From Nesterenkonia muleiensis (GTDB taxonomy: Bacteria; Actinomycetota; Actinomycetes; Actinomycetales; Micrococcaceae), in assembly GCF_003600155.1 (NCBI RefSeq), contig NZ_QWLD01000003.1, positions 1-64,000 of the forward strand: a DNA stretch of 64,000 nt. The letters run 5' to 3'. Both the position numbers and the translations under genes were made by a program. The notes below the pieces were generated by a model, which did not search any database, had not been told where the DNA came from, and saw only the letters and a list, made by a program, of their open reading frames with translations. Each line of letters begins with the position of its first letter. Position 1 is the stretch's first letter. Shown here piece after piece: positions 9,809-49,041 of the stretch.

Positions 9809-9849
9809 CCGTCGCTGAGCCACCGTGGACCGCCTGTTAGGGTGTGGAG

Positions 9850-9960
9850 TGACCGAGGGGTGTCCTGGCTGAAGGACTGAGATGCCGCTGGCTCACGCAA
9901 TGAGCAGCGCGGCAACCCTTTGAACCTGATCCGGGTCATGCCGGCGAAGGGACGGGGCTC
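9850..9960 (+). promoter_or_regulatory. TPP riboswitch (thi box)
   Basis: The conserved core is intact: GGGGTGTCC, then CTGAGATG, then ACCCTTTGAACCTGATCCGG, then GTCATGCCGGCGAAGGGA. This is the thiamine-pyrophosphate aptamer in the sense orientation for tenA, whose ATG is about 75 nt downstream. No terminator hairpin with a T-run follows. Regulation by hiding the GAGGAG ribosome site, as usual in actinobacteria, is the likely mechanism (inferred). Confidence 0.95.
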
Positions 9961-10031
9961 TTCGCGCATCCGCTAGAGATTCACCGCTCCCCGCCTGGCC
10001 CGAGCCGGACCATCAACCCTGAGGAGAGCAG

Positions 10032-23481: not shown

Positions 23482-23655
23482 GCTGCTCCATGCTCTGAAA
23501 CGGACGGTGTGCTGAATCGATAACTGTGGGCCGAAAAGGCCCTGCGACAGTTTATGCCGATAAAGTCCGCGATGCAGACTCGATGACGCAGTGATCAAGC
23601 TCACGGTGATACGTTGCTGGCAGTCCCCCTCGACACAGCACCAGGAGGCCCTCAC

Positions 23656-25035
23656 ATGTCATCTGAAGAACTCACGTCCGTTCTCCCCGAGGGACGCGTA
23701 GTGACCGATCCGGCCACTATGGACGGCTACCGCTGGGACCGGGCCAATGACCCCGAGGCCGGCACGCCGCTTGCGGTGGTCCGTGCCGAGTCCACCGAGG
23801 ACGTGCAGGCCACAGTGCGCTTCGCCGCCGAGCGCGGGATCCCGGTGGTGCCTCGTGGAGCAGGCTCAGGGCTCTCCGGGGGGTCCACTGCGGTGGCCGG
23901 CGGCATCGTGCTGTCCATGGAACGGATGCGCCAGATCCAGGTCGATCCGCTGACCCGTACCGCGGTGGTCCAGCCTGGAGCGTTCAACGCCGAGGTCAAA
24001 GCAGCGGCCGGTGAGCACGGATTGTGGTACCCGCCTGATCCGTCGTCGTTCGAGATCTGCTCGATCGGGGGCAATATCGCCACCAATGCCGGCGGGCTGT
24101 GCTGTGTGAAGTACGGAGTGACCACCGACTACGTATTGGGGCTGGAGGTGGTGCTGGCCGATGGGCGTGCGGTGCGGCTGGGGGGTCCTCGGCTGAAGGA
24201 CGTGGCGGGCCTGGACCTGACGAAACTCTTCATCGGCTCCGAGGGGACCCTGGGTGTGGTCACCGAGATCACCCTCCGGCTCATCCCGACTCAGCGTCCG
24301 CCGACCACCCTGGTGGCCACCTTCAAGACCCTGGATGACTCCACCAAGGCGGTCCTGGCCATCTCTTCCTCCATGCGGCCCTCCATGCTGGAGTTCATGG
24401 ACAATCCGACCATCAACGCGGTGGAGGACGCCACCAAGATGGGACTGGACCGGGACGCGGCGGCAATGCTGGTCATCCAGTCTGATGAGCCCGCGGAGTT
24501 CGCCACCAAGGAGATCGAGCTGATCGAAGGACTCTGCTACCAGCACAACGCCGAGGAGGTCTTCTACACCGCCGACCCCGATGAGGGTAAGGCCTTCGTG
24601 GTGGCCCGCCGCATGGCCATCCCCGCAGTGGAGCAGAAGGGCTCGCTGCTGCTGGAGGACGTCGGCGTCCCGCTGCCCCGGCTCGGCGACCTGGTGCGCG
24701 GCATCGAGGCGATCTCCCAGAACCGAGATATCGTCATCGCTCTGATCGCCCATGCCGGCGACGGCAACACCCACCCGCTGCTGGTCTTCGACCCCTCTGA
24801 CGAGGACCAGAAGCAGCGCGCCCACACCGCCTACGGTGAGGTGATGGACCTGGCCATCGAGCTCGGCGGAACCATCACCGGCGAGCACGGCGTCGGACGT
24901 CTGAAACGACCCTGGTTGGCCGACTACATCGGCGAAGACGCCCTGGACCTCAACCACCGGATCAAGAGGGCCCTGGACCCTGGGAATATCCTCAACCCTG
25001 GTGCTGTACTGGATCCGGTAGCCCTGCAAACCTGA
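23656..25035 (+). CDS. FAD-binding oxidase, GlcD/D-lactate dehydrogenase type
   Basis: FAD-linked 2-hydroxyacid dehydrogenase of 459 aa (glycolate oxidase GlcD / D-lactate dehydrogenase family). The PP-loop VVPRGAGSGLSGGSTAVAGG and ICSIGGNIATNAGGLCCVKY bind FAD. The C-terminal half has IALIAHAGDGNTHPLLVFDP and GTITGEHGVGRLKRPWL, with the metal/substrate His and Glu. GGAGG lies 8 nt before the ATG. As the first gene of a run with etfBA, a cytochrome b and a lactate permease, its substrate is probably D-lactate or another 2-hydroxyacid and its acceptor ETF (inferred). Confidence 0.92.
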   Translation: MSSEELTSVLPEGRVVTDPATMDGYRWDRANDPEAGTPLAVVRAESTEDVQATVRFAAERGIPVVPRGAGSGLSGGSTAVAGGIVLSMERMRQIQVDPLTRTAVVQPGAFNAEVKAAAGEHGLWYPPDPSSFEICSIGGNIATNAGGLCCVKYGVTTDYVLGLEVVLADGRAVRLGGPRLKDVAGLDLTKLFIGSEGTLGVVTEITLRLIPTQRPPTTLVATFKTLDDSTKAVLAISSSMRPSMLEFMDNPTINAVEDATKMGLDRDAAAMLVIQSDEPAEFATKEIELIEGLCYQHNAEEVFYTADPDEGKAFVVARRMAIPAVEQKGSLLLEDVGVPLPRLGDLVRGIEAISQNRDIVIALIAHAGDGNTHPLLVFDPSDEDQKQRAHTAYGEVMDLAIELGGTITGEHGVGRLKRPWLADYIGEDALDLNHRIKRALDPGNILNPGAVLDPVALQT

Positions 25036-25047
25036 AGCGAGAGAGCT

Positions 25048-25476
25048 ATGTCTGACTACACCACCATCCCCGCCATCACCTACACCAAGGCTGCCGAGGC
25101 AGTCAGACTGACCATCGAGATCGGCGCTGACCGCGGGCTGGCCCTCTGCGCCGCAGTGGTGGACCCCGCGCTGGGCTTGGTGGCCTACGGCCGCGCTGAC
25201 GGGCTGACCCCGCACAGCGTGGAGACCTCCCGGCGCAAGGCCAACACGGCAGCTTCGACCCGCAAGCCCTCCGCCTCGGTCCCCGCCGAGCTGGCCGATG
25301 CGATGGAGAACGGCACCGGCGGACTGCTGACCCGCATCCCCGGCGGAGTCCCGCTAGTATTCGGTGGTGTGCTGGTCGGCGGACTGGGCGTGGCTGGCGG
25401 TCCGCCGGTCAAAGATGCCGAGGTCGCCGCTGCCGTACTCGATGCCCTGGGTGCAGATCCGATCGGAGATGTGTGA
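25048..25476 (+). CDS. GlcG/HbpS family protein
   Basis: A 142-aa protein of the HbpS/GlcG (DUF336) family: AEAVRLTIEIGADRGLALCA, VVDPALGLVAYGRADG, GGVPLVFGGVLVGGLGVAGG. Members bind haem or flank glycolate/propanediol genes, but their biochemical role is poorly defined. It starts 12 nt after the FAD oxidase and its stop overlaps the etfB ATG (TGATG). It probably works with the oxidase. No signal peptide is seen, so it is likely cytoplasmic. Confidence 0.85.
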   Translation: MSDYTTIPAITYTKAAEAVRLTIEIGADRGLALCAAVVDPALGLVAYGRADGLTPHSVETSRRKANTAASTRKPSASVPAELADAMENGTGGLLTRIPGGVPLVFGGVLVGGLGVAGGPPVKDAEVAAAVLDALGADPIGDV

Positions 25477-26249
25477 TGAAGATTGTGGTGTTGGTCAAGG
25501 AGGTTCCTGATTCGTATGGGGAGCGGAAGCTTAACCTGACCACTGGCCTGGCTGAGCGTGAGGCCAGTGAGAAGGTGCTGGATGAGATTACCGGCCGGGC
25601 GGTGGAGGTTGCTGTGTCGTATGCCGAATCTGCCCAGGAGGCGGAGGTGGCCCTGCTTGCGGTGGGTCCGGCCTCTGCTGAGGCGACGTTGCGTAAGACC
25701 CTGGCGATGGGTGGTGACTCGGCTCATCATGTGGTGGATGAGGGTCTGGCTGGTGCTGATCTGACCCTGACTGCTGAGGTGATCGCGGCGGCTCTGGAGC
25801 GTATCGGGTTTGATCTGGTGATCGCTGGAGATGTCTCTTCTGACGGCACCGGCGGGCTGATTCCCACCATGGTGGCCCAGCGGCTGGGAACCGCTCATGC
25901 CACCAGCTTGGATGCTGTGGAGATCACCGACTCGGCAGTCGCAGGGGAACGTGCGGCCTACGGGGGTACGGTGAGGGTTCAGGCGCCATTGCCTGCAGTG
26001 GTCTCGGTCACCGAACGGCTGCCCGACCCTCGGTTTCCGGGGTTCAAGGGCATCATGTCGGCGAAGAAGAAGCCATTGGAGACCTACACCCTGGCAGACC
26101 TGGGAGTCGAGGCTGAAGCTGATGTGCCGCGCTCGATCATGCTCTCCGTCTCTGAGACCCCTGCCCGGATGTCCGGGGAGAAGATCACTGATGACGGCGA
26201 TGCCGGCACCAGATTGGCCGAGTACCTGATCCAGAGGAGGCTGGTGTGA
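25476..26249 (+). CDS. etfB: Electron transfer flavoprotein beta subunit
   Basis: AMP/FAD-associated subunit of ETF, 257 aa. It starts MKIVVLVKEVPDSYGERKLN. LVIAGDVSSDGTGGLIPTMV and RFPGFKGIMSAKKKPLETYT match canonical actinobacterial ETF rather than bifurcating types. The ATG overlaps the preceding stop; a GTG one codon upstream is possible. The first 600 nt use more T-ending codons than the neighbours. ETF here probably takes electrons from the GlcD-type oxidase; a general acyl-CoA dehydrogenase role cannot be excluded. Confidence 0.95.
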   Translation: MKIVVLVKEVPDSYGERKLNLTTGLAEREASEKVLDEITGRAVEVAVSYAESAQEAEVALLAVGPASAEATLRKTLAMGGDSAHHVVDEGLAGADLTLTAEVIAAALERIGFDLVIAGDVSSDGTGGLIPTMVAQRLGTAHATSLDAVEITDSAVAGERAAYGGTVRVQAPLPAVVSVTERLPDPRFPGFKGIMSAKKKPLETYTLADLGVEAEADVPRSIMLSVSETPARMSGEKITDDGDAGTRLAEYLIQRRLV

Positions 26250-27274
26250 CCATGGTTGAGCAGAACACCCCTGAACGAAACACCTCTGAACCGAACATTC
26301 TGGTTTTCCTGCCTGTGCTGCCCTCCGGTGAGCTTCTCGGCTCTGCTGCTGAGCTGCTGGGGGCGGCATCTGCATTGGGCACACCGGTCGGCGTGATCCT
26401 CGCGCCTGCGGGGAAGGGCCACGCCGCTGCCGAGGCTGCTGGGCAATGCGGTGCTGCGCGGGTCTTCACCGCCGAGCACAAGGTGACGGGCTCATTGTTG
26501 ACTACCCCCTACCTTGAGGTGGTGGCCGCTGCCTGGGAGGCGACCGGCCCTGAGGCGGTGCTGGTGCCCAACGATGTTGACGGGCGCGATATCGCCGCCC
26601 TGCTGTCGGTGCGGACCGGGTCGGCGATTGCCTCTGACGTAGTCGGGGTGCACCGGGATGAAGAGGGCGTGGTGGCTCACCACTCGGTCTACGGGTCCGG
26701 ATACACCACCGAATCCGCTCCTACTCATGGCACGTTGATCATCACCCTGCGCGAAGGGGCTGTCGATGACCGGGCACCGGCGGCTGAGCCAGTTGTCGAA
26801 ACCCTGGAGCTCAATGGTGCAGGGCTGGATGAGCCGCCGGGGACAGCGGCTTCGATCACCGAGTTCACCGAATCAGTGGAGGCCTCCACCCGCCCGGATC
26901 TGCGCGGAGCCAAAACCGTGGTCTCCGGGGGCCGGGGCCTGGGGTCCAAGGAGGGCTTCGAACTGGCAGGGCAGCTGGCTGATGAGCTCGGTGCTGGCCT
27001 GGGAGCCTCACGTGCGGCGGTGGATGCCGGTTATGCCGCCCACTCCCTGCAGGTGGGCCAGACCGGGGTGACAGTGACCCCGGACCTCTACATCGCCTTG
27101 GGAATCTCAGGAGCGGTCCAGCACCAAGCCGGGATGCAGACCGCTAAGACGATTGTGGCGGTCAATAAGGACCCCGAAGCGCCCATCTTCGACATCGCTG
27201 ATTTCGGCATTGTCGGTGATGCCTTCGAGGTGGTGCCCCAGCTGATCGAGACTCTCAGGGCCAAGGGTCAGTGA
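26246..27274 (+). CDS. etfA: Electron transfer flavoprotein alpha subunit
   Basis: FAD-binding ETF subunit of 342 aa. The C-terminal FAD domain shows AKTVVSGGRGLGSKEGFELA, then YAAHSLQVGQTGVTVTPDLY and ALGISGAVQHQAGMQTAKTI. There is no extra ferredoxin domain, unlike the bifurcating lactate dehydrogenase complex of acetogens. The GTG start overlaps the etfB stop and the gene's own stop overlaps the cytochrome b start (GTGA). This indicates a strictly coupled operon. Confidence 0.95.
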   Translation: MTMVEQNTPERNTSEPNILVFLPVLPSGELLGSAAELLGAASALGTPVGVILAPAGKGHAAAEAAGQCGAARVFTAEHKVTGSLLTTPYLEVVAAAWEATGPEAVLVPNDVDGRDIAALLSVRTGSAIASDVVGVHRDEEGVVAHHSVYGSGYTTESAPTHGTLIITLREGAVDDRAPAAEPVVETLELNGAGLDEPPGTAASITEFTESVEASTRPDLRGAKTVVSGGRGLGSKEGFELAGQLADELGAGLGASRAAVDAGYAAHSLQVGQTGVTVTPDLYIALGISGAVQHQAGMQTAKTIVAVNKDPEAPIFDIADFGIVGDAFEVVPQLIETLRAKGQ

Positions 27275-28860
27275 CAACGGATCCTGGGCACCGGCGCCGC
27301 GGGCTTCCTCGCACCGAGGAAGAGGCCACAGCGCAGCCAGCCGCGCCGGAACCCACACCAGCACCAGAGCCCACGGCCTCTGGCCCCACACCGCATCGCA
27401 GGCGAGGCCTGCCGAGAACTGAGGCCGAAGCCCAGGCCCGTGCCGCGGAACCCCCTCCAGCAGCCCCCGCCCCCGCTGTCAACGAGTCACCTGCTGCCCC
27501 GGACACATCGGCACCTGCCGAGCAGGAGGTGGCCGCTGCCGAAGCTTCGCACCCCGCCGCTACTGTGGGGCTTCCTCCGCATAAGCCCGGCAGACGCCGT
27601 GGTCTGCCACGCACTGAGGCCGAGGCGCGAGCCCGCAAAGCTGCAGCGGGCAAGCCTGCCGCTGCGCCCACATCGGCACCGGAGGCCAAGCCCGGGCTGA
27701 AACCGGGCCGCCGCACCGGGCTGAGCAGCACCCCTGCCCCGGCATCGGCCACAAAGTCTCCACCGGCAGGGCGCCGTACCGGCCTCGGCGGCACACCCGC
27801 ACCCCAGCCCGCTCCCGCCCCACCTGAGCAGCCCAAACAGTCCAACACTGAGGAACCCGTCCCTGAGAAGCTCGCCTCCGGCACCCCGGCGCCTGCTGAG
27901 ACCAAGCAGGGTGCCGGCAGCAGCGTCACCCCTGCTGCGGAACCCACACGCGAACCGGTCAGGGCCTTTGCCGGACGCACCCCCACACAGTGGGCCGTAC
28001 TGGCCGCAGCGGCAGTGGGCGTCGTCGTAGTGCTGGCTGCGGTGCTGGTGCTGGGCTCCAGATGGCTCTTAGGCACCCAGGCCGGCACCAGCTTCCTGGC
28101 CGACTACCCCGGTCAGTACGCCCAGCCCGGTGCCCCCAGCGGCTATCCGTGGTGGTTGAACTGGGCTCATTTCTTCAACATGTTCCTGATGGTGCTGGTC
28201 ATCAAAACCGGCATCCAGATCCGCGGTGAGACCCGGCCAGCAGCCTACTGGACCCCCAGGTGGAACCCGAAGCGCAAGATCAGCCTCACCATCTGGACCC
28301 ACCAGGTGCTGGATCTGCTGTGGGTGCTCAACGGCATCATCTTCGTGGTGCTACTCATTGCCACCGGGTACTGGCGACGGGTGGTGCCCACCAGCTGGGA
28401 CGTCTTCCCCAACGCGATCTCAGCCGGACTGCAGTACGCCTCCCTGGACTGGCCGACCACCGGGGACTGGGCCCACTACAACAGCCTCCAGGAGCTGGCC
28501 TACTTCACCACCATCTTCATCGCCGCCCCCCTGGCCATCGCCACAGGAATCAGAATGTCTGGACTCTGGCCTGCGAACAATCACACATTGAACAAGGCGT
28601 TTCCTCTCGAGCTAGCCCGGGCGGTGCATTTCCCGGTGATGATCTATTTCGTGGTTTTCATCGCCGTACATGTGATCCTGGTCTTCGCTACCGGGGCTCT
28701 GCGCAACCTCAATCAGATCTACACCGGCCAAGATGTCACCAACTGGACCGGGTTCTGGCTCTTCACCCTCTCCCTGGCCGTCATCATCGCCGCGGTCTTC
28801 GCCACCCGCGCGGTCATCATCGCCCCCATCGCCGCCCTCTTCGGGAAAGTGGGGCGATAG
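27271..28860 (+). CDS. Membrane cytochrome b-type protein with repetitive Pro/Ala-rich N-terminal tail
   Basis: A 529-aa protein in two parts. Residues 1-235 are a Pro/Ala-rich tail with five basic repeats at R8, R43, R108 (RRRGLPRTE followed by an acidic Ala-rich stretch), R147 and R168 (GRRTGL). The tail is followed by a transmembrane helix (241-262) and a cytochrome b561/b6-like domain with several more helices. Membrane-placed His residues suitable as haem ligands are H300, H344, H453 and H467. Fifth in the operon after etfBA, it could pass electrons from ETF to the quinone pool in place of ETF:quinone oxidoreductase (inferred). The GTG start overlaps the etfA stop. Confidence 0.85.
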   Translation: MTTDPGHRRRGLPRTEEEATAQPAAPEPTPAPEPTASGPTPHRRRGLPRTEAEAQARAAEPPPAAPAPAVNESPAAPDTSAPAEQEVAAAEASHPAATVGLPPHKPGRRRGLPRTEAEARARKAAAGKPAAAPTSAPEAKPGLKPGRRTGLSSTPAPASATKSPPAGRRTGLGGTPAPQPAPAPPEQPKQSNTEEPVPEKLASGTPAPAETKQGAGSSVTPAAEPTREPVRAFAGRTPTQWAVLAAAAVGVVVVLAAVLVLGSRWLLGTQAGTSFLADYPGQYAQPGAPSGYPWWLNWAHFFNMFLMVLVIKTGIQIRGETRPAAYWTPRWNPKRKISLTIWTHQVLDLLWVLNGIIFVVLLIATGYWRRVVPTSWDVFPNAISAGLQYASLDWPTTGDWAHYNSLQELAYFTTIFIAAPLAIATGIRMSGLWPANNHTLNKAFPLELARAVHFPVMIYFVVFIAVHVILVFATGALRNLNQIYTGQDVTNWTGFWLFTLSLAVIIAAVFATRAVIIAPIAALFGKVGR

Positions 28861-28887
28861 CCACTGCGCCGGTAGGAGTGATCGCGT

Positions 28888-28904
28888 AGTCCGTATCCCG
28901 GACT
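28888..28904. promoter_or_regulatory. 17-bp inverted repeat before lactate permease
   Basis: AGTCCG-TATCC-CGGACT is a perfect inverted repeat in the gap between the cytochrome b gene and the permease. A second hairpin, CACACTG-CTTT-CAGTGTG (28933-28950), follows. The first is operator-like; the second could be an RNA hairpin. No T-run follows either. Confidence 0.35.
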
Positions 28905-29012
28905 GTCCCTATCCGGTGAAAGTGCTGTATGTCACACTGCTTTCAGTGTGCCGGAGTCACGACCCTGTCCCGACTCAATGATGAGTTCGCACCGCGAAAG
29001 GACGTTATCAGC

Positions 29013-30818
29013 GTGGATAACCTAGCAGTCCTCAGTCTTCTAGCCATAGCCCCCATTCTTGTGGCCGGCATCCTGTTGGCCGGATTCCGATGGCCTGCCA
29101 AGTACGCCATGCCGATCAGCTATCTCACCGCCCTGGGGATCGCCTGGACCGCGTGGGAGATGCACCCCACCGCTCTGGCGGCCGCTTCCCTGGAAGGGCT
29201 GATCGTCGCCGGAACCCTGCTCTACATCGTCTTCGGCGCCCTGCTCCTGCTCTCCACCGTCACTGTCTCCGGTGCCATGGAGCGCATCAAAGCCGGCTTC
29301 AACCACATCTCCCCCGACCGGCGCATCCAGGCGATCATCATCGGCTGGCTCTTCGGCAGCTTCATCGAAGGTGCCTCGGGATTCGGCACACCTGCCGCGG
29401 TGGTCGCCCCGCTGATGCTGGCCATGGGCTTCCCGGCGGTTGCTGCTGTGGTGGCGGGCCTGATCATCCAGTCCACACCCGTGAGCTTCGGCGCGGTCGG
29501 CACGCCCATCATTGTCGGGGTAGGCAACGGCCTGGGCGAAACCTCACCCGGGGTCCCAGAACGCCTCGGCGAACTGGGCATGAGCTATTCGGAGTATGTA
29601 GCCCATATCGGATTCCAAACCGCAGCCATTCACATGGCGGTCGGCATTCTCATCCCGCTGATCCTGGCCTGCATGCTCACTGGGTTCTTCGGGGAGAAGC
29701 GCAACTTCGCCCTGGGCCTGAAGGTCTGGCCCTTCGCCGTCTACGCCTCTCTGGCCATGACGATCCCTTCGGTGACCGTGGCCTATCTGATCGGCCCGGA
29801 GTTTCCTTCGCTGATCGGCGGTCTGGTGGGCCTGACGCTGGTGATGTTCACCTCGTCCAAGGGGTTCCTCATGCCGAAGGAGACCTTCGACTTCGGACCC
29901 CGTGCCGCCTGGGAGGAGCGCTGGATGGGCCGGATCGCTCCCGGAACCTCCCAGGAGCCCTCGGCGCCGATGAAGATGACGCTGGTACAGGCATGGTCTC
30001 CGTACCTGATCCTGGCTGCCCTGCTGGTGCTGACCCGCATCATCGATCCGCTGACCGAGTTCCTCACCACCTCAGGACTCACCCGGATCACGGTCGCCGA
30101 TATCCTCGGCGTGGAGGGCATCACCACTGACGTAGACCTTTTCTACTCGCCTGGCTTCATCCTGATCTTCGTCTCGGTGATCGCTTACCTGATCTACCGG
30201 ATGAATGGCAAGCAGATCGCCCAGACGTGGGCAGTGGCCGGCAAGCAGATCCTCGGCACAGCGGTGGCGCTGCTGTTTGCGGTACCCATGGTGCGCGTAC
30301 TGATCCAGTCCGGCGCCAACGAATCCGGTCTGGACTCCATGCCGGTGGTGCTGGCCCAGGGCGTGGCGAGCGTCGCCGGAGACACCTGGCCGTTCTTCGC
30401 TCCGTTCATCGGTGCCCTGGGAGCGTTCATAGCAGGTTCCAATACCGTGTCCAACCTCACTTTCGCCCAGTTCCAGTGGTCGGCCGCCAATCAGATCGGG
30501 GTCTCCCAGGAGACAGTGGTCGCGGGTCAGGCCGCAGGAGGAGCCGGCGGCAACACGATCGCGATCCACAACATTGTCGCCGCATCAGCCACTGTCGGCC
30601 TGCTGAACCGCGAAGGCGATATCATCCGCAAGACCGTGTGGGTTGCCCTTTACTACTGCATCGCCGCTGGAACCATCACCTTCCTGGCTATCAACGGCTT
30701 CGGCGTGAACGTCGGTACCGGTGCACTGATCGCGCTGATCGCAGGCCTGTTCGGCATCGGCTACTGGGCGGTCAGGCGCGGTGATTCCAAGGCGGTGCAG
30801 TTACCCCAGCAGAACTGA
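29013..30818 (+). CDS. lctP: L-lactate permease family transporter
   Basis: Membrane transporter of 601 aa with about 13-14 hydrophobic segments, of the LctP/LldP family (lactate, also glycolate, with protons). Family segments are [58 protein letters not shown] and [20 protein letters not shown]. The GTG at 29013 is chosen because AAAGGA precedes it and the first helix begins there; an upstream ATG would add an unlike 28-residue Cys-containing stretch. Its position after the oxidase/ETF/cytochrome b genes gives the module its probable substrate. Confidence 0.95.
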
Positions 30819-30846
30819 GAGCGGTGTCGGCACCCACCCCTTGCAT

Positions 30847-30862
30847 TCGAAACTGTGTTCGA
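30847..30862. promoter_or_regulatory. SOS (LexA) box before umuDC
   Basis: TCGAA-ACTGTG-TTCGA is a near-consensus gram-positive/actinobacterial SOS box (CGAAC-N4-GTTCG type). It sits 14 nt before the umuD ATG and just upstream of a -10-like GATACT (30865-30870), so LexA would block this promoter. Confidence 0.85.
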
Positions 30863-30876
30863 CTGATACTGGTGGG

Positions 30877-31308
30877 ATGAGAGTTTCAGAGTTCGTTCCC
30901 GTAGCAGCTCCGGCAGCTGCCCATGAGATTCCCGTGATGCCCACTGCCCTGGCCGCCGGGTTCCCCTCGCCAGCCCTGGACTTCGTGCACGAGAGCATCA
31001 ATCTCCAGGAGCATCTGGTCCACGACCCTCCCGCCACCTTCATCGCCCGGGTCAGCGGGGACTCGATGGTCGGTGCCGGGATCAGCGACGGTGACCACCT
31101 CCTGATCCGGAAGGGAACCCAACCACGGGACGGCGACGTCGTCGTCGCGGTTCTTGACGGACAGTTCACTGTCAAACGGCTGCGGCTCACCGGTGCCGGG
31201 GTGCGGCTGCAGGCGGCGAACCCGCAGTACCCGGATATCCAGGTCCCGGAGCTTTCTGAGCTGGTGGTCTGGGGCGTGGCCTATATGTGTCTGCACAGTC
31301 TGCGATGA
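30877..31308 (+). CDS. umuD: UmuD-like S24 peptidase (error-prone polymerase V accessory)
   Basis: LexA/UmuD family protein of 143 aa lacking a DNA-binding domain. The self-cleavage pair is A27-G28 in ALAAGFPSPALDF. The catalytic dyad is S63 (RVSGDSMVGAGISDGD) and K100 (DGQFTVKRL). After RecA-stimulated cleavage it should activate the UmuC polymerase. The ATG at 30877 lies 6 nt after GATACT with no Shine-Dalgarno site, so it is probably leaderless. Its stop overlaps the umuC start (ATGA). Confidence 0.92.
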   Translation: MRVSEFVPVAAPAAAHEIPVMPTALAAGFPSPALDFVHESINLQEHLVHDPPATFIARVSGDSMVGAGISDGDHLLIRKGTQPRDGDVVVAVLDGQFTVKRLRLTGAGVRLQAANPQYPDIQVPELSELVVWGVAYMCLHSLR

Positions 31309-32585
31309 CTGAGAAGCTGGTCGCGCTGATTGACGTCAACAGCTTCTACGCCAGCTGTGAACGCGCCTTCGACCCCGCGCTGGCTGCCCGACCGGTGGTG
31401 GTGCTGTCCAATAACGACGGCTGTGCAGTGGCCATGAGCCCGGAGGCCAAGGATCTCGGCGTGAGCGTCGGCATGCCCTGGTTCAAGCTTGCTCCGACAG
31501 CAACGCAGCGGGGGATCATCGCCCGGTCCAGCAACTACGAGCTCTACGGGGACATGAGCCACCGGTTTCTGCAAGTCATCGGAGAGCATTCGCCCCAGGT
31601 GGAGAAGTACAGCATCGACGAGGCCTTCGCCGCCTTCGACGGTCCCCCGTCAGCGGCTGAGCCGTGGTCCCGGAAGCTCCGGCAAGAGATCACAGATCGG
31701 CTTGACCTGCCGGTGGGCATCGGCGTGGGGCCGACCAAGACCCTGGCCAAGCTGGCGAATCTCGCGGCCAAGAAGGTGGATGGAATGCATGGCGTCTGCG
31801 TCTGGGATGCCCTGCCGGAGGACTACCGCGAACAGGTGCTGTCGCGGCTTCCGGTGCAGCAGATCTGGGGTGTGGGACCACGCACTGCCAAGAAGCTGGC
31901 GGCCATGGGCGTAGAGACGGCCAGCCAGCTGCGTGCGGCTGATCCGCTGATGGTCCGCAAGCGTCTGGGCGTTCCGGTGATGCGTAGTCTGCTGGAGCTG
32001 CGCGGACAGCCCTGTGTGGAGCTCACCGATGCCCGGGACTTCCTTGACTCCTTGGTCTTCAGCCGCTCCTTCTCCTCACCGGTGACCACCGCCGAGACCA
32101 TGGAACAGGTGCTGGTCAGCTATGCCCAACGCGCCTGCACCCGGCTCAATACCCGCCAGTCAGAGGCAAAGACTCTGACCGCCTGGGCGATGACCTCCTG
32201 GCACAGCAATAACAGCGTGTTCGAGTCCCCCTCGGCCACCCTCTCCCTGCCGGCACCGACTAACGATCCGGTCATTCTCTCGCGTGCCGCCAAGTCGCTG
32301 CTGCCGAAGATCAAGGAGGGGACCCGCTACACCAAGGCCGGGATCACTCTGACCGACCTCTCCCCTGCCGGCTCACAGCCCACCCTGGATGTGCTGGTCG
32401 ATCCGCAGCAGGAGAGCGGCCTCGGGCCTCTGCTGCAGAGAGTGCGGGAGAAAGCCGGCACGGATTCCATCGGCCTGGGCCTCGGCGGGCTCAGGATTCC
32501 GGCGGAGTGGGAGATGCGCCGGGAGATGATGAGCCCGCGTTATACCACCCGCTGGGAGGAGATGCTCATCGTCCACGCAACGTAG
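31305..32585 (+). CDS. umuC: Y-family DNA polymerase, UmuC type
   Basis: Translesion DNA polymerase subunit of 426 aa. The catalytic strand LVALIDVNSFYASCERAFDP, the second acidic motif in KYSIDEAFAAFDG, the helix-hairpin-helix IWGVGPRTAKKLAAMGVETA and a C-terminal UmuC-specific region are present. It is translationally coupled to umuD behind an SOS box, so it should be damage-induced and mutagenic. Confidence 0.95.
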   Translation: MTEKLVALIDVNSFYASCERAFDPALAARPVVVLSNNDGCAVAMSPEAKDLGVSVGMPWFKLAPTATQRGIIARSSNYELYGDMSHRFLQVIGEHSPQVEKYSIDEAFAAFDGPPSAAEPWSRKLRQEITDRLDLPVGIGVGPTKTLAKLANLAAKKVDGMHGVCVWDALPEDYREQVLSRLPVQQIWGVGPRTAKKLAAMGVETASQLRAADPLMVRKRLGVPVMRSLLELRGQPCVELTDARDFLDSLVFSRSFSSPVTTAETMEQVLVSYAQRACTRLNTRQSEAKTLTAWAMTSWHSNNSVFESPSATLSLPAPTNDPVILSRAAKSLLPKIKEGTRYTKAGITLTDLSPAGSQPTLDVLVDPQQESGLGPLLQRVREKAGTDSIGLGLGGLRIPAEWEMRREMMSPRYTTRWEEMLIVHAT

Positions 32586-32600
32586 CCCTCTCGCGCACGG

Positions 32601-32613
32601 CGTACGTTGTACG
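32601..32613. promoter_or_regulatory. Palindrome over the uvrA2 promoter
   Basis: CGTAC-GTT-GTACG is a perfect inverted repeat overlapping the -10-like TACGAT (32610-32615), which ends 6 nt before the ATG of the next gene. Its position is that of a repressor operator (TetR or MarR size). No regulator gene lies beside it. Confidence 0.4.
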
Positions 32614-32621
32614 ATATTGGG

Positions 32622-35051
32622 ATGAATATGAGCCGCACGACTTTCGACAGCCCTGCCCTCGACTCCCCCGCCACCACCGCGCATGAGTTCATCGCCGTCC
32701 GCGGTGCCGCGGAGAACAACCTCCGCGGCGTCGACGTCGACATCCCCAAGCGCAGACTGACCGTCTTCACCGGGGTCTCGGGGTCCGGGAAGTCCTCGCT
32801 GGTCTTCGGTACCGTCGCAGCCGAGTCCCGGCGGCTGATCAATGAGACCTATGATGCGTTCATCCAGGGCTTCATGCCCGCCATGGCCCGCCCCGAGGTG
32901 GAGGTGCTGACCGGACTGACCGCGGCCATCATCATCGACCAGGAGCGGATGACCCCGAATCCGCGCTCCACAGTCGGCACCGTGACCGATGTCAATGCGA
33001 TGCTGCGTATCCTCTTCAGTCGGTTCGCCCAGCCGCAGATCGGCTCCCCGCAGGCCTACTCCTTCAACGTCGCCTCAGCCTCCGGCTCCGGGACGCTCAC
33101 CAAGGCCGATGGGACCCAGGAGTCCGCGGGCTTCAGCGTCACCGGCGGCATGTGCCTGCGCTGCGAGGGACGCGGTCAGATCAACGACATCGACCTGTCA
33201 CAGCTGGTGGACGAGTCCAAGTCGCTGAACGAAGGGGCGATCACCGTTCCCGGCTACAAGGTGGGCGGCTGGTCGGTGCGGTTCTACAGCGAGTCCGGGT
33301 TCTTCGATCCGGAGAAGCCGGTGAAGGACTACACCGAGCAGGAGCGGCAGAATCTCTTCCACCGGGAGCCTGGCAAGGTCAAGATCAGCGGGGTCAATAT
33401 GACCTTTCAGGGCCTGGTCCCCTCGGTCAAGAAGTCCTTCCTCTCCAAGGATCGCGATGCGATGCAGCCCCATATCCGCAGCTTTGTGGACCGCGCGGTC
33501 ACCTTCACCGACTGTCCGGACTGCGACGGAACCCGGCTCTCCCAGTTGACGCTCTCATCCACCATCGCCGGGAAGAACATCGCTGAGCTGTGCGCCATGC
33601 AGATCAGCGACCTGGTGGAGTGGATCCAGGACCTCGATACCGCCGTCGAAGGCCTGGCCAACGCGGAACCGCTGCTGGAGACGGTCCTGGAGACCCTGCG
33701 GAACTTCGTGAACATCGGGCTGGGCTATCTGTCCCTGGAGCGCTCCTCGGGCACCCTCTCCGGCGGCGAGGCTCAACGGGTGAAGATGATCCGGCATCTG
33801 GGTTCCTCGCTGACCGATGTCACCTATGTCTTCGACGAGCCGACCATCGGGCTGCACCCCCACGATGTGGCGCGGATGAACGAGCTACTGCTGAAGCTGC
33901 GGGACAAGGGCAACACCGTCCTGGTGGTGGAGCACAACCCCGAAGTGATGGCCGTGGCCGACCACATCATCGATATGGGCCCAGCCGCCGGAAGCCACGG
34001 CGGTGAGGTGGTCTACACCGGCGACTTCGCCGGGCTGCGCGCCTCGGCCACCCGCACCGGAGAGCACCTGGAGTCCCAGCAGCCGCTGAAGCAGGACCCG
34101 CGTATACCCACCGGAACCATCGAGATCCGCGGTGCCACCACCCACAACCTGCAGGACATAGACGTGGATGTGCCCACCGGAGTCCTAGTCGCGGTCACCG
34201 GTGTAGCCGGTTCGGGCAAGAGCTCGCTGATCCACGGCTCAGTGGCCGGACGAGAAGACGTAGTCGCGGTGGACCAAGCCGCCATCCGCGGGTCCCGCCG
34301 CTCCAATCCCGCCACCTACACCGGACTGCTGGAGCCCATCCGCAAGGCTTTCGCCAAGGCCAATGGCGTCAAGCCCGCCCTGTTCAGCGCCAACTCCGAG
34401 GGTGCCTGCCCCAACTGCGGCGGCGCCGGAGTCATCTACCAGGACTTGGGGATCGTTTCGGGCATCTCCACTGTCTGCGAAGAGTGCGGTGGCAAGCGGT
34501 TCCAAGCCTCCGTGCTGGAGTACCGGCTCGGCGGGCTGAACATCGCAGAGGTGCTGGCACTGCCGGTGGAGGAGGCCCTGGAATTCTTCAGCGGCAAGGG
34601 TGCCGGCAGCAAAGAGACCGCACTCGCCGCCGCCCAAAAGATCCTGACCCGACTCTCCGACGTCGGACTTGGATATCTGACCCTGGGGCAGCCGCTGAGC
34701 ACGCTCTCCGGCGGTGAGCGCCAACGCATCAAGCTTGCCATTGAGATCGGCTCCGATGCCGAGGTGATGGTGCTCGACGAGCCCAGCGCCGGGCTGCATA
34801 TGGCCGATACCGACCGGCTGATCAGGATGCTGGAGAAGATCGTGGACTCCGGACGCACCGTGATCGTCATCGAGCACAATCTTGATGTGATCTCCCGAGC
34901 AGACTGGGTCATCGACGTCGGTCCCGGCGCTGGGCACGACGGCGGGCAGGTCGTCTTCTCCGGCCCGCCCGCCGATCTCGCCACCGCGGGCAGCTCACTG
35001 ACCGGCCAGCACCTCAGCCGACGGCATGGAGCAGGTCAGCTGTCCAGCTAA
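32622..35051 (+). CDS. UvrA2-type excinuclease ATPase (ABC, class II UvrA)
   Basis: UvrA-like tandem ABC ATPase of 809 aa, shorter than UvrA (about 950). The two Walker A loops are GVSGSGKSSLVFGTVAAE and GVAGSGKSSLIHGSV; signatures are SGTLSGGEAQRVKMIRHLG and LSTLSGGERQRIKLAIEIG. Zinc modules CLRCEGRGQ and CPNCGGAGVIYQDLG are kept. The segment after LRILFSRF goes almost directly to the zinc module, so the UvrB-binding domain seems missing, as in UvrA2 proteins linked to drug or damage tolerance. The ATG at 32622 follows TACGAT by 6 nt (leaderless type). It may join the SOS response with umuDC, but it has its own promoter. Confidence 0.9.
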   Translation: MNMSRTTFDSPALDSPATTAHEFIAVRGAAENNLRGVDVDIPKRRLTVFTGVSGSGKSSLVFGTVAAESRRLINETYDAFIQGFMPAMARPEVEVLTGLTAAIIIDQERMTPNPRSTVGTVTDVNAMLRILFSRFAQPQIGSPQAYSFNVASASGSGTLTKADGTQESAGFSVTGGMCLRCEGRGQINDIDLSQLVDESKSLNEGAITVPGYKVGGWSVRFYSESGFFDPEKPVKDYTEQERQNLFHREPGKVKISGVNMTFQGLVPSVKKSFLSKDRDAMQPHIRSFVDRAVTFTDCPDCDGTRLSQLTLSSTIAGKNIAELCAMQISDLVEWIQDLDTAVEGLANAEPLLETVLETLRNFVNIGLGYLSLERSSGTLSGGEAQRVKMIRHLGSSLTDVTYVFDEPTIGLHPHDVARMNELLLKLRDKGNTVLVVEHNPEVMAVADHIIDMGPAAGSHGGEVVYTGDFAGLRASATRTGEHLESQQPLKQDPRIPTGTIEIRGATTHNLQDIDVDVPTGVLVAVTGVAGSGKSSLIHGSVAGREDVVAVDQAAIRGSRRSNPATYTGLLEPIRKAFAKANGVKPALFSANSEGACPNCGGAGVIYQDLGIVSGISTVCEECGGKRFQASVLEYRLGGLNIAEVLALPVEEALEFFSGKGAGSKETALAAAQKILTRLSDVGLGYLTLGQPLSTLSGGERQRIKLAIEIGSDAEVMVLDEPSAGLHMADTDRLIRMLEKIVDSGRTVIVIEHNLDVISRADWVIDVGPGAGHDGGQVVFSGPPADLATAGSSLTGQHLSRRHGAGQLSS

Positions 35052-42591: not shown

Positions 42592-45099
42592 TCAACTGCG
42601 CATCCTCTCTCCGCTGGAATCGAAGAGGGGATCCTGCGCGACGGACCCGCCGCACCTCTGACCGAAATAGGCTACCTCTACCCGGGTGCCGGACGATGCC
42701 AGCTCCACCGGCAACCAGGCGTAGGCGATGGAGGCGCCGATGCTGTAGCCCTGGTCGGCACTGGTGACATAGCCGACTGCCTCCAGTTCCTCTGCCGGGT
42801 CAACCGGCTCCGGATAGACCGGTTCGCCTCCCAGCAGGACCCGGGTGGGGTCATCGAGCACCACGCAGCAGAGCTTCTGGGCAGGCTGTTCAGCCCCGGG
42901 GCGTGCCAACTGATCTGCAGCCTCGCCGCGAACGGCGAACTCCAGGCCGGCCTCTGCGGGGGTGTGCTCCCGGGTGATGTCCTGCCCGTAGAGCCGGAAA
43001 CCCTTCTCCAGACGCATCGACTCGAAGGCTCGGCGACCTACCGGCAGAATTCCGTGCTCCGCCCCCGCCTCGAAGAGCGCGTCCCAGAGGAAGCGTCCGA
43101 ACTCAGCCGGGGCGTAGAGCTCCCAGCCGAGCTCGCCGACGTAGCTCAGCCGCAGTGCCAGCACCGGAACCCCGGCCACCGAGATCTGCTTGGCCCGGTA
43201 GAACCTGAAGGACTCATTGCTGAGCTCTGCCTCGGTCAGCTGCGACAGCACCGACCGGGCCAGCGGCCCCCAGAGGCCCAGGCCGCAGGATCCTGAGGCG
43301 GCATCCTCGACCCGCACCTGTAGCCCGAGCTCTGCAGCGCGGCGACGCAGCCACGCAGTGTCCTGGTTCCCGTTGATGCCCAGGTGATAGCCCTCAACGA
43401 GTGTGGCCACAGTGATGTCGGAGAGGATCCCGCCGTCCTCGTCGAGCAGCAGTCCGTAGACCACCGTGCCGGGCTTCGTGCCGACCGGACGGGAGAGCAG
43501 CGTGTTCAGCAGCTCTCCTGCGTCGGGGCCGCACACGGTGGCCCTGGGCAGCGATGACATATCGACGACGCCGACCCCGGCTCTGAGCGCCCGGGCCTCC
43601 ACCGCGACCGTGGGACTCCAGTGCCGCGCCGCCCAGGCATCGCGCGCCGGAAGCGGATCATCGCCGAGCATCGGGGCCGCTCGGTCGGTGTTGGACTCGA
43701 ACCAGAGTGGACGCTCCCAACCGTTGGCCGCGCCGAAGACGGCGCCGAGCTGCTCCTGGCGCTCATAGAACGGCGAGGTCCGCAGTCCGCGCAGCCGCAG
43801 CGTGGAGGCCTTCGGGTGGATAATGTCGTAGACCTCGTCGTAGGACTCTTCGCCCTGCTCGCGGGCCCAGCGAGCGGAGACCACCGCCGGGTCGAAGCGA
43901 GCCAGGTCCAGTCCTGAGGTGTCGATGCCCGGGTCACCGGTGGTGATCCAGTCAGCCATGACGTCTCCGACCCCGGCGGACTGGGTCACCCAGACAGCCT
44001 GGGCCATCCAGAGGCCGTGAACCTCCGGCACCGGGCCCAGCAGGGGGCCGCCGTCGGGGGTGAAGGAGAAGATGCCGTTGAAGGACAGGCTGCGCTCCAG
44101 CTCGGCCCCGCGCAGCCAGGGCACCAGCCGCTGAGCCTCTTCCCAGCTGGGCAGGTAGTCCTGCTCGGTGAAGGGGTGCACCGCTGGCTCCACCCCGGTG
44201 GCGGCGAACTCCTCGGCGGAGGCGATCTGATGATCGGCCACGGGTATGGGACGGTGCTCGTAGGCGCCTAGGGCGATCCGGTGTCCCCATTCGCGGAAGT
44301 ACATGGCGTGGTCCTGGTGCCGGATCATCGGACGGAGGACCTCTTGAGCATCGTCGATGTGCTCCAGCTGGGGCAGCCGGGTGCTGAATCCAAACCCGTG
44401 CTCCACAGCCAGCTGTGGGATCTCAAAGCCCAGCAGCTCACGGCTCAGACCTGGCCCCCAGAGCCCTGCGGCACTGACGACCACCTCGGCGTCCACGTCC
44501 TGGGGTTCTGCCCCGGCGGGAGCTCCCACAGGCAGGGTTCGTACGCCGGTGACCGTCGAGTCCTCGATGCGCAGGCTGACCACTTTGGTGTTCGGCAGCA
44601 GGGTCGCACCTCCGGCCTGCGCTCTGCGAGCCTGGAACTCGACGGCGCGCACGCCTTTGACCACCGCGTCTGTCGGAGTGTGGAAGCCGCCGAGTAGGTG
44701 CTGGGCGTCCAACCCCGGCCAGAGTCCGGCCACCTCCTCGGGGCCGATCAGCCGGGAGGGGATGCCCCAGGATTCGGCGAAGCCGTGGCGGCGTGTCAGA
44801 TCATGCAGCCGTTCCTCAGTGGTGGCGATCTCCACCCCGCCGACACGCTTGGACACCCACTGGCCGTTGACCGTGTGCCCGTCGAGCTTGTCCACGGTGC
44901 GCTTGGCCAGCTGGGACATGGCTCTGCTGGGACCGGTCTGGAAGACGAAGCCCGGCGCATGTGAGCTGGACCCGCCGGTGGCGTAGAGCGGCCCCTGGTC
45001 GATGACGGTGACGTTGTTCCAGCCGCGCAGCACCAGTTCGTCGGCCAGCGCGGCGCCGACCACACCGAGTCCGATGATCACTGTGCGAGGTCCTGACAT
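42592..45099 (-). CDS. Dimethylglycine dehydrogenase/oxidase (FAD plus GcvT-like folate domain)
   Basis: An 835-aa two-domain enzyme like Arthrobacter dimethylglycine oxidase. The N-terminal FAD domain has VIIGLGVVGAALADELVLRG and SSSHAPGFVFQTGPSRAMSQ, whose His (H47) fits the covalent FAD site of the family. The C-terminal half is GcvT-like and binds tetrahydrofolate, capturing the formaldehyde (LSYVGELGWELYAPAEFGRF, GRRAFESMRLEKGFRLYGQD). Product: sarcosine. The ATG at 45099 is preferred to a GTG six codons upstream. Candidate regulator sites lie 20-60 nt upstream. Confidence 0.92.
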   Translation of the reverse strand: MSGPRTVIIGLGVVGAALADELVLRGWNNVTVIDQGPLYATGGSSSHAPGFVFQTGPSRAMSQLAKRTVDKLDGHTVNGQWVSKRVGGVEIATTEERLHDLTRRHGFAESWGIPSRLIGPEEVAGLWPGLDAQHLLGGFHTPTDAVVKGVRAVEFQARRAQAGGATLLPNTKVVSLRIEDSTVTGVRTLPVGAPAGAEPQDVDAEVVVSAAGLWGPGLSRELLGFEIPQLAVEHGFGFSTRLPQLEHIDDAQEVLRPMIRHQDHAMYFREWGHRIALGAYEHRPIPVADHQIASAEEFAATGVEPAVHPFTEQDYLPSWEEAQRLVPWLRGAELERSLSFNGIFSFTPDGGPLLGPVPEVHGLWMAQAVWVTQSAGVGDVMADWITTGDPGIDTSGLDLARFDPAVVSARWAREQGEESYDEVYDIIHPKASTLRLRGLRTSPFYERQEQLGAVFGAANGWERPLWFESNTDRAAPMLGDDPLPARDAWAARHWSPTVAVEARALRAGVGVVDMSSLPRATVCGPDAGELLNTLLSRPVGTKPGTVVYGLLLDEDGGILSDITVATLVEGYHLGINGNQDTAWLRRRAAELGLQVRVEDAASGSCGLGLWGPLARSVLSQLTEAELSNESFRFYRAKQISVAGVPVLALRLSYVGELGWELYAPAEFGRFLWDALFEAGAEHGILPVGRRAFESMRLEKGFRLYGQDITREHTPAEAGLEFAVRGEAADQLARPGAEQPAQKLCCVVLDDPTRVLLGGEPVYPEPVDPAEELEAVGYVTSADQGYSIGASIAYAWLPVELASSGTRVEVAYFGQRCGGSVAQDPLFDSSGERMRS

Positions 45100-45120
45100 G
45101 TGACCCACCCCTCCCACGAC

Positions 45121-45156
45121 GTTGCACTTAGCGCAACATCATCTTTATTACGCAAC
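45121..45156. promoter_or_regulatory. Candidate operators before dimethylglycine enzyme gene
   Basis: GTTGC-ACTTAGC-GCAAC (45121-45137) is an inverted repeat. On the minus strand GTTGCGTAATAAAG (45143-45156) matches a motif before the Rieske ferredoxin gene (46194-46206). The patch is AT-rich and lies just upstream of the gene, in the 179-bp gap after iclR. The neighbouring IclR protein is the likely binder (inferred). Confidence 0.5.
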
Positions 45157-45278
45157 TACGGTACTCATCCACCCCTGTGCCGGACAACTCCCACCACCTG
45201 CCCGAGGGGAAATTAACCTTCCTGCAACACCCCAAGCCCCACACCCCGGCCGCAAGTGCCCCGTCTGTGCCTTGAGGC

Positions 45279-46067
45279 TCAGGCCGTGGCACCTGTGGTG
45301 ACCACACCCAGCTTGGCCTCGAGCCGGTCAGCGGCCTCACGCAGGACCGCCACATGATCCACGAAGGAGGACTCCGGGAGCCGGAAGGCCGGCGCGGTGG
45401 TGGACAGGGTGGCTACGATCTCTCCCCCCGGGCCGCGCACAGGCACAGCCAGCGCATTGATGCCCTCCTCCCACTCAGCCACGGCTGAGGCCCAACCGCG
45501 CTGCAGCACGGCTTCGAGCTCATCCGCCAGAGTCTTGGCGTCGGTGATCGTTGACCCGGTGAAGGCTTCCAACGCCCCGGTGAGGATGCGCCTCTGCTCA
45601 GCGGGGGACGCGTAGGCCAGCAGCACCTTCCCGGTGGAGGTGGCATGCAACGGTCCCCGCTGGCCCACATACTGCCGAGCCACTCCGATCATCCGCTCGC
45701 CCACCGTCTGAGTGATGGTCACCGCTGCCGACTGGTCGAGAATAGCGACATTGACCGTCTCTTTCAGCTGGGCCGCGGCGTCATCACAGCTGGATTGGGC
45801 GTCACGGGTCAGATCGATGCGCCCGGTCACGGCATTGGCCATGCGCAGCAGCCCGAAACCCAACCGGTAGGCGCCCCTGGCAGTCTCCTGCTCCACCAGA
45901 TCGTGGGACTCCAAAGTGGCCAGGAGCCTGAAGGCTGTGGACCGGTGAACACCGAGCCGCCTGGCGATCTCGCTGATGGTCAGTGACGGCTGTTCGCGCA
46001 GCATGCCCAGAATCTGCGCGGCGCGGTCCACCGACTGCACTGGCTTCGCTTCGACTGCGGTGTCCAT
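45279..46067 (-). CDS. IclR family transcriptional regulator
   Basis: A 262-aa regulator. The N-terminal winged helix shows VDRAAQILGMLREQPSLTIS, EIARRLGVHRSTAFRLLATL and ESHDLVEQETARGAYRLGFG. The C-terminal GAF-like effector domain shows RGPLHATSTGKVLLAYASPA and GINALAVPVRGPGGEIVATL. It lies between the dimethylglycine enzyme gene and the divergent Rieske genes, so it very probably controls betaine breakdown. GGAGGAAG precedes the ATG at 46067; a GTG one codon upstream is possible. Confidence 0.93.
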   Translation of the reverse strand: MDTAVEAKPVQSVDRAAQILGMLREQPSLTISEIARRLGVHRSTAFRLLATLESHDLVEQETARGAYRLGFGLLRMANAVTGRIDLTRDAQSSCDDAAAQLKETVNVAILDQSAAVTITQTVGERMIGVARQYVGQRGPLHATSTGKVLLAYASPAEQRRILTGALEAFTGSTITDAKTLADELEAVLQRGWASAVAEWEEGINALAVPVRGPGGEIVATLSTTAPAFRLPESSFVDHVAVLREAADRLEAKLGVVTTGATA

Positions 46068-46175
46068 CACCGTAACTTCCTCCTAGATGTTTCCTTCTGA
46101 TGAATTGTTCTTCACATCAGCCATGGGGGCTTGACGCACCCCGGGGAGTGGCGTCATCCTATGTGCATCACACTG

Positions 46176-46206
46176 TTGTGTATCACGAGCAGTGTTGCAT
46201 AATAAG
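46176..46206 (+). promoter_or_regulatory. Promoter and regulator motif before Rieske genes
   Basis: TTGTGT (46176-46181), a 16-nt spacer and CATAAT (46198-46203) form a good promoter. The motif GTTGCATAATAAG (46194-46206) overlaps the -10 and repeats the one upstream of the dimethylglycine gene. A second -10-like TACGTT (46232-46237) lies 5 nt before the first GTG. Confidence 0.5.
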
Positions 46207-46242
46207 AAACATTACCACATGGTGATGCTAGTACGTTGGGCG

Positions 46243-49032: not shown

Positions 49033-49041
49033 GCTGGGCTC

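Follow-up and report, generated by a model that had tools for sequence, protein, structure and literature searches.

Introduction

Which protein takes electrons from the electron transfer flavoprotein (ETF) in an actinobacterium whose genome shows neither an ETF:quinone oxidoreductase (ETF-QO) nor a protein like EtfD, the ETF oxidase of mycobacteria? The question is raised by a run of six genes on the + strand of a 64,000-nucleotide stretch of the Nesterenkonia muleiensis genome (assembly GCF_003600155.1, contig NZ_QWLD01000003.1, positions 1 to 64,000; this whole stretch is called the window below). As judged from open reading frames (ORFs) and Pfam domains, these genes encode a GlcD-type FAD dehydrogenase, a small HbpS/GlcG protein, EtfB, EtfA, a membrane cytochrome b (CytB) and a permease of the LctP family. 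A previous reading of the letters, which we call the sequence-only reading, had described them as a lactate module that sends electrons through ETF and cytochrome b to quinone. In this study, we have followed up that proposal by comparing loci, genomes, protein models and published systems. Based on our results, we think it reasonably probable that the run is a glycolate oxidation operon in which electrons pass from GlcD to EtfBA, then to CytB and menaquinone, with the etfBA-cytB cassette replacing GlcE and GlcF and with CytB replacing ETF-QO or EtfD.

Results

Gene order and its conservation

All six genes lie where the sequence-only reading had placed them and run in the same direction, and the stop/start overlaps that it reported from GlcG to the cytochrome b gene can be read in the DNA as three 4-base GTGA overlaps (HbpS/etfB, etfB/etfA and etfA/cytB). 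The GlcD and HbpS genes are separated by 12 bases, and the permease gene follows cytB after 68 or 152 bases, according to whether it starts at 28929 or 29013 (Table 1). The Pfam scan of GlcD was made on a longer frame, from 23614.

A profile search with CytB gave at least 552 confirmed relatives, and the best 80 loci were kept for gene-order counts; the closest named relatives among these fetched loci come from Nesterenkonia and Garicola. Of the 72 loci that could be decided (8 were too short to judge), 62 have the EtfA gene immediately before that of CytB on the same strand; when the count is restricted to loci with 3.5 kb of upstream sequence, the figure is 58 of 68. The order oxidase-etfBA-cytochrome b-lctP, whose recurrence had been proposed as a check, is retained with all six genes in six of the eight fetched Nesterenkonia/Garicola loci (L012-L017); L010, a contig of 3.5 kb, is too short to show the full order, and in L011 (N. 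sedimenti) etfBA-cytB stands alone, with none of the GlcD, HbpS and permease genes. This recurrence goes beyond chance. The sole fetched locus outside these two genera with the same oxidase-ETF-CytB run is that of a Cryobacterium (L018), which has GlcD-HbpS-EtfB-EtfA-CytB and an LctP-family gene further downstream on the other strand. The gene set is less special than it had appeared, since its etfBA-cytB part is far more widespread and often stands beside acyl-CoA genes: acyl-CoA or valine-degradation genes are present in the fetched stretch of 39 of the 54 ETF-linked loci outside Nesterenkonia/Garicola, including an acyl-CoA dehydrogenase in 31, and 15 of the 54 have none of the probe families used. 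On this evidence, etfBA-cytB looks like a general electron-transfer cassette of which the oxidase would be one client. CytB, for its part, looks like a general partner of ETF.

The search for other ETF oxidases

The N. muleiensis genome, which is 98% complete, was searched for the ETF-QO domain (Fer4_ETF_QO, PF05187) and for CCG proteins (PF02754). The ETF-QO domain was detected neither in this genome nor in any of 148 sampled genomes of the class, a control set being positive in 3 of 14, and the Pfam hits of CytB do not include it. The genome has one CytB and one CCG match, which is a fusion of FAD-oxidase_C, Fer4 and CCG domains and is neither an EtfD nor a GlcF. An ETF-QO, EtfD-like or GlcF-type protein encoded elsewhere in the genome was considered as a candidate, and none was found with these two models. 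GlcE was not detected by Pfam inside the six-gene run, the part of the genome searched for it. Because the ETF-QO domain is missing from the genome and from the 148 others, it appears to be a good reading that, as the sequence-only reading had supposed, a haem-b protein stands in for ETF-QO; the separate ETF-QO that it named as the competing explanation has no matching domain here.

For the class-wide comparison, a CytB was called close at E below 1e-100 (a threshold of our choosing) and a CCG protein strong at a best E below 1e-10. Close CytBs occur in 6 of the 148 genomes, all from the order of the host, and a strong CCG protein is missing from all six (four give no CCG match and two a weak one); the other four of the ten host-order genomes show the reverse, a strong CCG protein without CytB. 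Outside the order, a strong CCG protein is present in 130 of 138 genomes and missing from 8, and seven of the 138 contain frames of about 600-680 residues that match the CytB core more weakly (E 1e-94 to 1e-37), each time together with a strong CCG protein. The distribution of close CytBs and strong CCG proteins has a Fisher p of 0.005 within the order, where only four families are represented, and of 2e-7 over the class. Among the strong CCG matches, L103, L106 and L119 are EtfD-like, with Fer4 and two CCG stretches and no membrane part named by Pfam; that of L111 has two CCG stretches only.

CytB and its proposed haem ligands

CytB matches the Ni_hydr_CYTB/b561 family (PF01292) at E 8e-9 (35.9 bits, cut-off 30.1); this is its only Pfam match, with no iron-sulphur (FeS) domain, and all 29 CytB cores compared match the same family at E 0.01 or better. 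In the AlphaFold2 model, a six-helix core begins at residue 241, with mean predicted local distance difference test (pLDDT) values of 74-95 over 10-residue blocks, and is preceded by a long tail. Four histidines (H300, H344, H453 and H467) never vary, either in the 29 cores compared or in an overlapping set of 42 longer rows. Judging from helix position and loop charge, H300 and H467 would lie towards the outside of the membrane and H344 and H453 towards the inside, the two pairs being at helix ends. In this arrangement the four residues could ligate two stacked haems, and the tail would be on the cytoplasmic side.

Repeats in the CytB tail

The tail of the window CytB contains three full copies of an Arg-rich repeat (RRRGLPRTExEA) and two degenerate ones, a feature on which the sequence-only reading is silent. 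Counting R-x-G-L-P-[RQSA] in 64 ETF-linked CytBs (63 fetched plus that of the window), we found 145 copies in 54 proteins, 128 of them exactly RRGLPR: three copies in 35 proteins, two in 15, four in 2 and one in 2. The first copy has a median position of residue 8, and a frequent longer form is RRGLPRVPGGEPWPPA. L035 was scored as motif-less in this count and in the tree, owing to a late start choice, and a separate count gives it 3 copies. Shuffled tails contain about 0.002 copies each, and RRGLPR was absent from 1,059 other ORFs picked mechanically from these loci (353,976 residues in all) as against 129 occurrences in 84 CytB ORFs. A genome-wide search with a CGN/CTN-only codon pattern gave 12 matches, 2 of them in cytB (a further copy with an AGG codon is missed by this pattern); the remaining 10 belong to open frames, 25-184 aa long, that we judged by eye to be non-coding. 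Of the 12 loci whose upstream sequence is long enough to show that CytB has no ETF neighbour, one (L020) has the motif.

Tails of other lineages have repeats of other kinds, PAPGGAVP in Corynebacterium and RQRMGG/RRMGSAPA in two Arthrobacter and two Citricoccus loci. Repeats were also seen in the CCG proteins that we fetched: 6 of 30 (L103, L105, L112, L115, L119 and L125) have 5-8 copies of [GS]SLFD in long C-terminal tails, L111 has 5 DPWD and L109 a single SLFD, and most others have short tails. In our interpretation, the RRGLPR repeats probably capture ETF, this being the weakest link of the argument, and by analogy it is possible that EtfD and CytB tails have converged on a multivalent ETF tether.

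Some CytBs stand apart. Those of Corynebacterium have no adjoining ETF where upstream sequence exists (L043 and L049), and their tails carry PAPGGAVP-type tandem repeats (L037, L043, L044 and L049). The CytB of L005 (NZ_CP090424.1), labelled as a Stenotrophomonas maltophilia plasmid, groups with Corynebacterium and has a PAPG-type tail split over two frames; this entry looks like contamination or poor assembly. L151, L152 and L153 are repeat-less orthologues from genomes without ETF alpha, with a SAM-methyltransferase-like ORF nearby in L151 and L152. In genome G002, CytB has no tail repeats and ETF is encoded about 7 kb away.

The type of ETF

EtfA consists of the ETF and ETF_alpha domains only, and this absence of a ferredoxin domain bears out the non-bifurcating architecture described by the sequence-only reading. 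Its statement that the etfB motifs are canonical can be kept in part: the nucleotide segment reads SSDGTGGLIP, which matches neither the 1efp form (AIDNDMNATGQ) nor the CarD form (AIDGDTAQVG). The CarD-type segment (GDTAQVG) marks bifurcating ETFs. Bifurcation was rejected on these two grounds, EtfA having no ferredoxin domain and EtfB no CarD-type segment. The genome encodes one further ETF alpha, on contig C13.

The substrate

The best PDB match of GlcD is 9qgz, named 'Glycolate oxidase' (E 1.4e-119), with LctD (7qh2) far behind at E 5.4e-70. Its three best plasmid homologues (72, 64 and 63% identity) have telling neighbours. Those of Mycolicibacterium arabiense and Arthrobacter dokdonellae adjoin malate synthase G and an annotated heme-binding protein, which in Arthrobacter is 58% identical to the HbpS of the window and in Mycolicibacterium gives no blastp match to it; that of Rhodococcus pseudokoreensis adjoins glyoxylate carboligase, 2-hydroxy-3-oxopropionate reductase, a TIM-barrel protein and glycerate kinase. 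The IclR regulator of L017 is 51% identical to that of the Mycolicibacterium locus. In Cryobacterium L018, the downstream genes on the other strand, after one unassigned ORF, encode the LctP-family permease, glycerate kinase, glyoxylate carboligase (1084 bits, curated equivalog cut-off 711), tartronate semialdehyde reductase (351, cut-off 341) and a hydroxypyruvate-isomerase homologue that at 218 bits is under its cut-off of 353. The LctP permease family also covers glycolate, through the GlcA model. From these relatives, glycolate appears likelier than lactate as the substrate; lactate was demoted by the gene context of the plasmid homologues and of Cryobacterium, and the label of lactate module given by the sequence-only reading, at odds with the nearest solved relative and with these glyoxylate enzymes, was not supported.

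Sequences around the run

A GTGA-N6-TCAC palindrome stands upstream of GlcD. It is the single exact match in the window, as compared to about 1 per 24 kb across the fetched loci, and an exact copy is found upstream of GlcD in three of seven other loci (L012, L013 and L014) and not in L015-L018. We take the palindrome to resemble CRP/GlxR-type sites, and its position hints at control of the operon by a regulator of the CRP family.

Directly 3' of the permease gene, at 30781-35051 and all on the + strand, are genes for a Peptidase_S24 protein (UmuD type), a UmuC-type polymerase with DUF4113 and an apparently UvrA-like ABC_tran protein. A thiamine pyrophosphate (TPP) riboswitch is predicted at 9846-9969 on the + strand (67 bits). 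The genes at 42592-50559 encode a DAO/FAO_M/GCV_T protein of the kind found in dimethylglycine/sarcosine dehydrogenases, a Rieske ring-hydroxylating oxygenase, a pyridine-nucleotide reductase and a serine dehydratase; presumably they serve glycine-betaine catabolism, and their dehydrogenase could be another client of ETF.

Table 1. Features of the six-gene run, in window coordinates
Feature	Coordinates	Strand	Basis or remark
GTGA-N6-TCAC palindrome	23591..23604		Upstream of GlcD; ends 52 bases 5' of its start
GlcD-type FAD dehydrogenase, most likely glycolate dehydrogenase	23656..25035	+	FAD_binding_4 PF01565, FAD-oxidase_C PF02913
HbpS/GlcG-like small protein	25048..25476	+	PF03928, E 1.3e-23
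EtfB	25473..26249	+	PF01012; SSDGTGG variant in the nucleotide segment
EtfA, 342 aa, without ferredoxin domain	26246..27274	+	PF01012 and PF00766 (ETF_alpha) only
CytB, b561-family membrane cytochrome b with N-terminal low-complexity tail; proposed ETF:menaquinone oxidoreductase	27271..28860	+	PF01292
CytB residues 1-237, Ala/Pro-rich tail, probably disordered	27271..27981	+	AlphaFold2 block means of 41-72 over residues 1-230, secondary structure largely absent
Tail repeat 1, RRRGLPR, residues 8-14	27292..27312	+	
Tail repeat 2, RRRGLPR, residues 43-49	27397..27417	+	
Tail repeat 3, RRRGLPR, residues 108-114	27592..27612	+	
Degenerate tail repeat 4, RRTGLSS, residues 147-153	27709..27729	+	
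Degenerate tail repeat 5, RRTGLGG, residues 168-174	27772..27792	+	
Span with four invariant His codons (H300, H344, H453, H467)	28168..28671	+	Proposed ligands of two haems
LctP/GlcA-family permease	28929 (or 29013)..30818	+	PF02652 (Lactate_perm), E 1.1e-106; TIGR00795

Discussion

In the model that we favour, the LctP/GlcA-family permease would import glycolate, GlcD with its FAD would convert it to glyoxylate, and the electrons would pass to a dedicated, non-bifurcating EtfBA. The tail repeats of CytB would keep ETF near the membrane, where CytB would re-oxidise it on the cytoplasmic face and lead the electrons from the inner haem to the outer haem and on to menaquinone, the acceptor that we assume from actinobacterial physiology.

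A number of our results weigh against this model and have to be set beside the alternatives. On the substrate side, GlcD scores 428.5 bits, below the cut-off of 567.9 for the glycolate-oxidase GlcD equivalog TIGR00387; for the permease, the general LctP model (TIGR00795, 346.1 bits, cut-off 341.15) is the only one whose cut-off is exceeded, the scores for the lactate- and glycolate-specific models being far too low. Furthermore, the glycolate assignment for the window itself rests on homology, because glyoxylate enzymes were found neither in the window nor in L010-L017. The run could instead be a lactate module, with GlcD as a D- or L-lactate dehydrogenase, the permease importing lactate and the rest of the chain unchanged. 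We judge this unlikely: the permease does belong to the LctP family, LctD from the Ldh-Etf complex of Acetobacterium is a homologue of GlcD (E 5.4e-70), and an FAD enzyme 33.7% identical to LctD (7QH2) strongly prefers D-lactate (PMC12724367, in excerpt), but the solved structure nearest to GlcD is named a glycolate oxidase, glyoxylate-consuming enzymes accompany GlcD in 3 of 3 plasmid contexts examined and in Cryobacterium, and the permease family takes in glycolate as well. The least probable of the alternatives, in our opinion, is that GlcD reduces oxygen or quinone directly while the co-transcribed ETF and CytB serve acyl-CoA or dimethylglycine dehydrogenases. A related FAD D-lactate dehydrogenase is reported to reduce quinones and oxygen in vitro (same excerpt of PMC12724367), three homologous plasmid loci have GlcD without adjoining ETF, and acyl-CoA or valine genes are near most ETF-linked loci outside Nesterenkonia/Garicola (39/54); however, oxidase and ETF stay together in 7 loci (Nesterenkonia, Garicola and Cryobacterium), other clients could be served by the second ETF of the genome, and no GlcF-type CCG protein with which to form a GlcDEF complex was found there.

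The role of CytB in the glycolate model meets difficulties of its own. No ETF stands beside it in 10 of the 72 decidable loci (L020, L043, L049, L071, L075, L077, L079, L082, L085 and L088), and three of the six CytB genomes (G094, G117 and G138) have no ETF alpha match at all, so that the family evidently has at least one other job. Foldseek gave no significant solved neighbour (best E 1.5, in a search that the long tail may have hurt), and no PDB sequence matched CytB or its tail. It is accordingly conceivable, although quite unlikely, that CytB is the membrane partner of another enzyme and that an unrecognised protein oxidises ETF. More distant relatives of CytB are fused to molybdopterin-dependent oxidoreductase domains, which is the annotation of 14 of the 20 plasmid relatives listed, and the seven class genomes with frames of about 600-680 residues have a C-terminal extension that may be a domain of this type. 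Nevertheless, the CytB of the window has no such domain by Pfam, its gene overlaps etfA, linkage to ETF holds in 62 of 72 loci, and neither an ETF-QO domain nor an EtfD-like protein was found in the same genome. The tail is more evenly disputed. That its repeats do not bind ETF, and instead localise or oligomerise CytB or result from drift, has in our estimate only slightly less than an even chance, and is compatible with any of the other readings. Five ETF-linked CytBs (L008, L048, L056, L062 and L089) have short tails without repeats, and the association of motif and ETF linkage is confounded by kinship, the tree holding only 2 well-supported independent pairs and giving no power. The sequence-only reading had also suggested modelling the complex of ETF and cytochrome b. 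When the EtfA frame was read through into that of CytB (L025) and modelled with AlphaFold, the outcome gave no support, leaving the motif blocks at mean pLDDT 31 and 34, a weak test with EtfB absent and EtfA in only 9 of 26 alignment rows; the ETF sequence did not raise confidence in the repeats, because the window CytB with its tail, modelled without ETF, gave block means of about 41-69. On the other side are the exactness of RRGLPR (128 of 145 copies) with its first copy near residue 8, its absence from the 1,059 other ORFs, the lack of such repeats in the CytBs of the three genomes without ETF (G094, G117 and G138), and the parallel with the repeat tail of EtfD.

The route from ETF to menaquinone has been resolved only recently in mycobacteria, with EtfD, and the ETF of the relatives of N. 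muleiensis had no recognised oxidase, since those sampled lack the ETF-QO domain and some also lack an EtfD-like protein. CytB is now a named candidate, beside ETF in named Microbacterium, Arthrobacter and Nesterenkonia genomes, and etfBA-cytB looks like a so far undescribed way to feed ETF electrons into respiration. In the open-licence literature we found EtfD, the Syntrophus ETF:methylmenaquinone oxidoreductase (EMO) and bifurcating Ldh-Etf complexes, and no ETF oxidase made of cytochrome b only, an earlier subscription report being possible; nor did we find there the RRGLPR repeats of CytB, the one paper with this string being on ERK2 docking. As a more tentative proposal, CytB may represent a non-homologous, FeS-free class of ETF:menaquinone oxidoreductase that stands in for EtfD in part of the order, and unrelated ETF oxidases may have independently grown repeat tails (RRGLPR on one side, SLFD or DPWD on the other) as multivalent fishing lines for ETF. 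Since the two proposed haems are near opposite membrane faces, CytB could also use or build proton-motive force, as proposed for EMO. A repeated motif in otherwise variable tails, together with the parallel in EtfD, makes the docking of ETF on a membrane oxidase testable with peptides, and a likely misreading of a C2-acid pathway as a lactate one is corrected.

Several known systems can be compared with this locus. ETF-QO is a flavin and 4Fe-4S protein; it catalyses the reaction that we propose for CytB, with a Fer4_ETF_QO domain that CytB does not have. The glc operon of E. coli contains GlcDEF with GlcG and GlcA. Its GlcD-type flavoenzyme, HbpS/GlcG protein and permease family are also present here, whereas GlcE and GlcF appear to be replaced by EtfBA and CytB; GlcDEF is followed by the glycerate pathway (PMC11166783, in excerpt). 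LctBCD of Acetobacterium (Ldh-EtfAB, PDB 7qh2) likewise has a GlcD-family dehydrogenase beside EtfB and EtfA, but its EtfA bears a [4Fe-4S] motif and the complex bifurcates (excerpt of PMC6085437), whereas the run described here has no ferredoxin domain and includes a membrane cytochrome. As described in the excerpted text of PMC8805022, EMO is a di-haem b membrane protein between ETF and methylmenaquinone, much as we propose for CytB between ETF and menaquinone, and has FeS clusters too, in contrast to CytB, which shows no FeS domain. Finally, EtfD of mycobacteria (Rv0338c / MSMEG_0690) has a disordered C-terminal region with conserved interspersed repeats, where an AlphaFold3 model places a contact with ETF (PMC13083937, in excerpt), and its immunoprecipitation brings down EtfB (PMC8593149, in excerpt). 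In EtfD there are two [4Fe-4S] clusters and two CCG domains, a single haem has been seen and the tail is C-terminal, whereas CytB shows no FeS domains and has four conserved histidines and an N-terminal tail, but the two would be alike in a b haem, which in CytB is a proposed one, and in a disordered tail that bears repeats.

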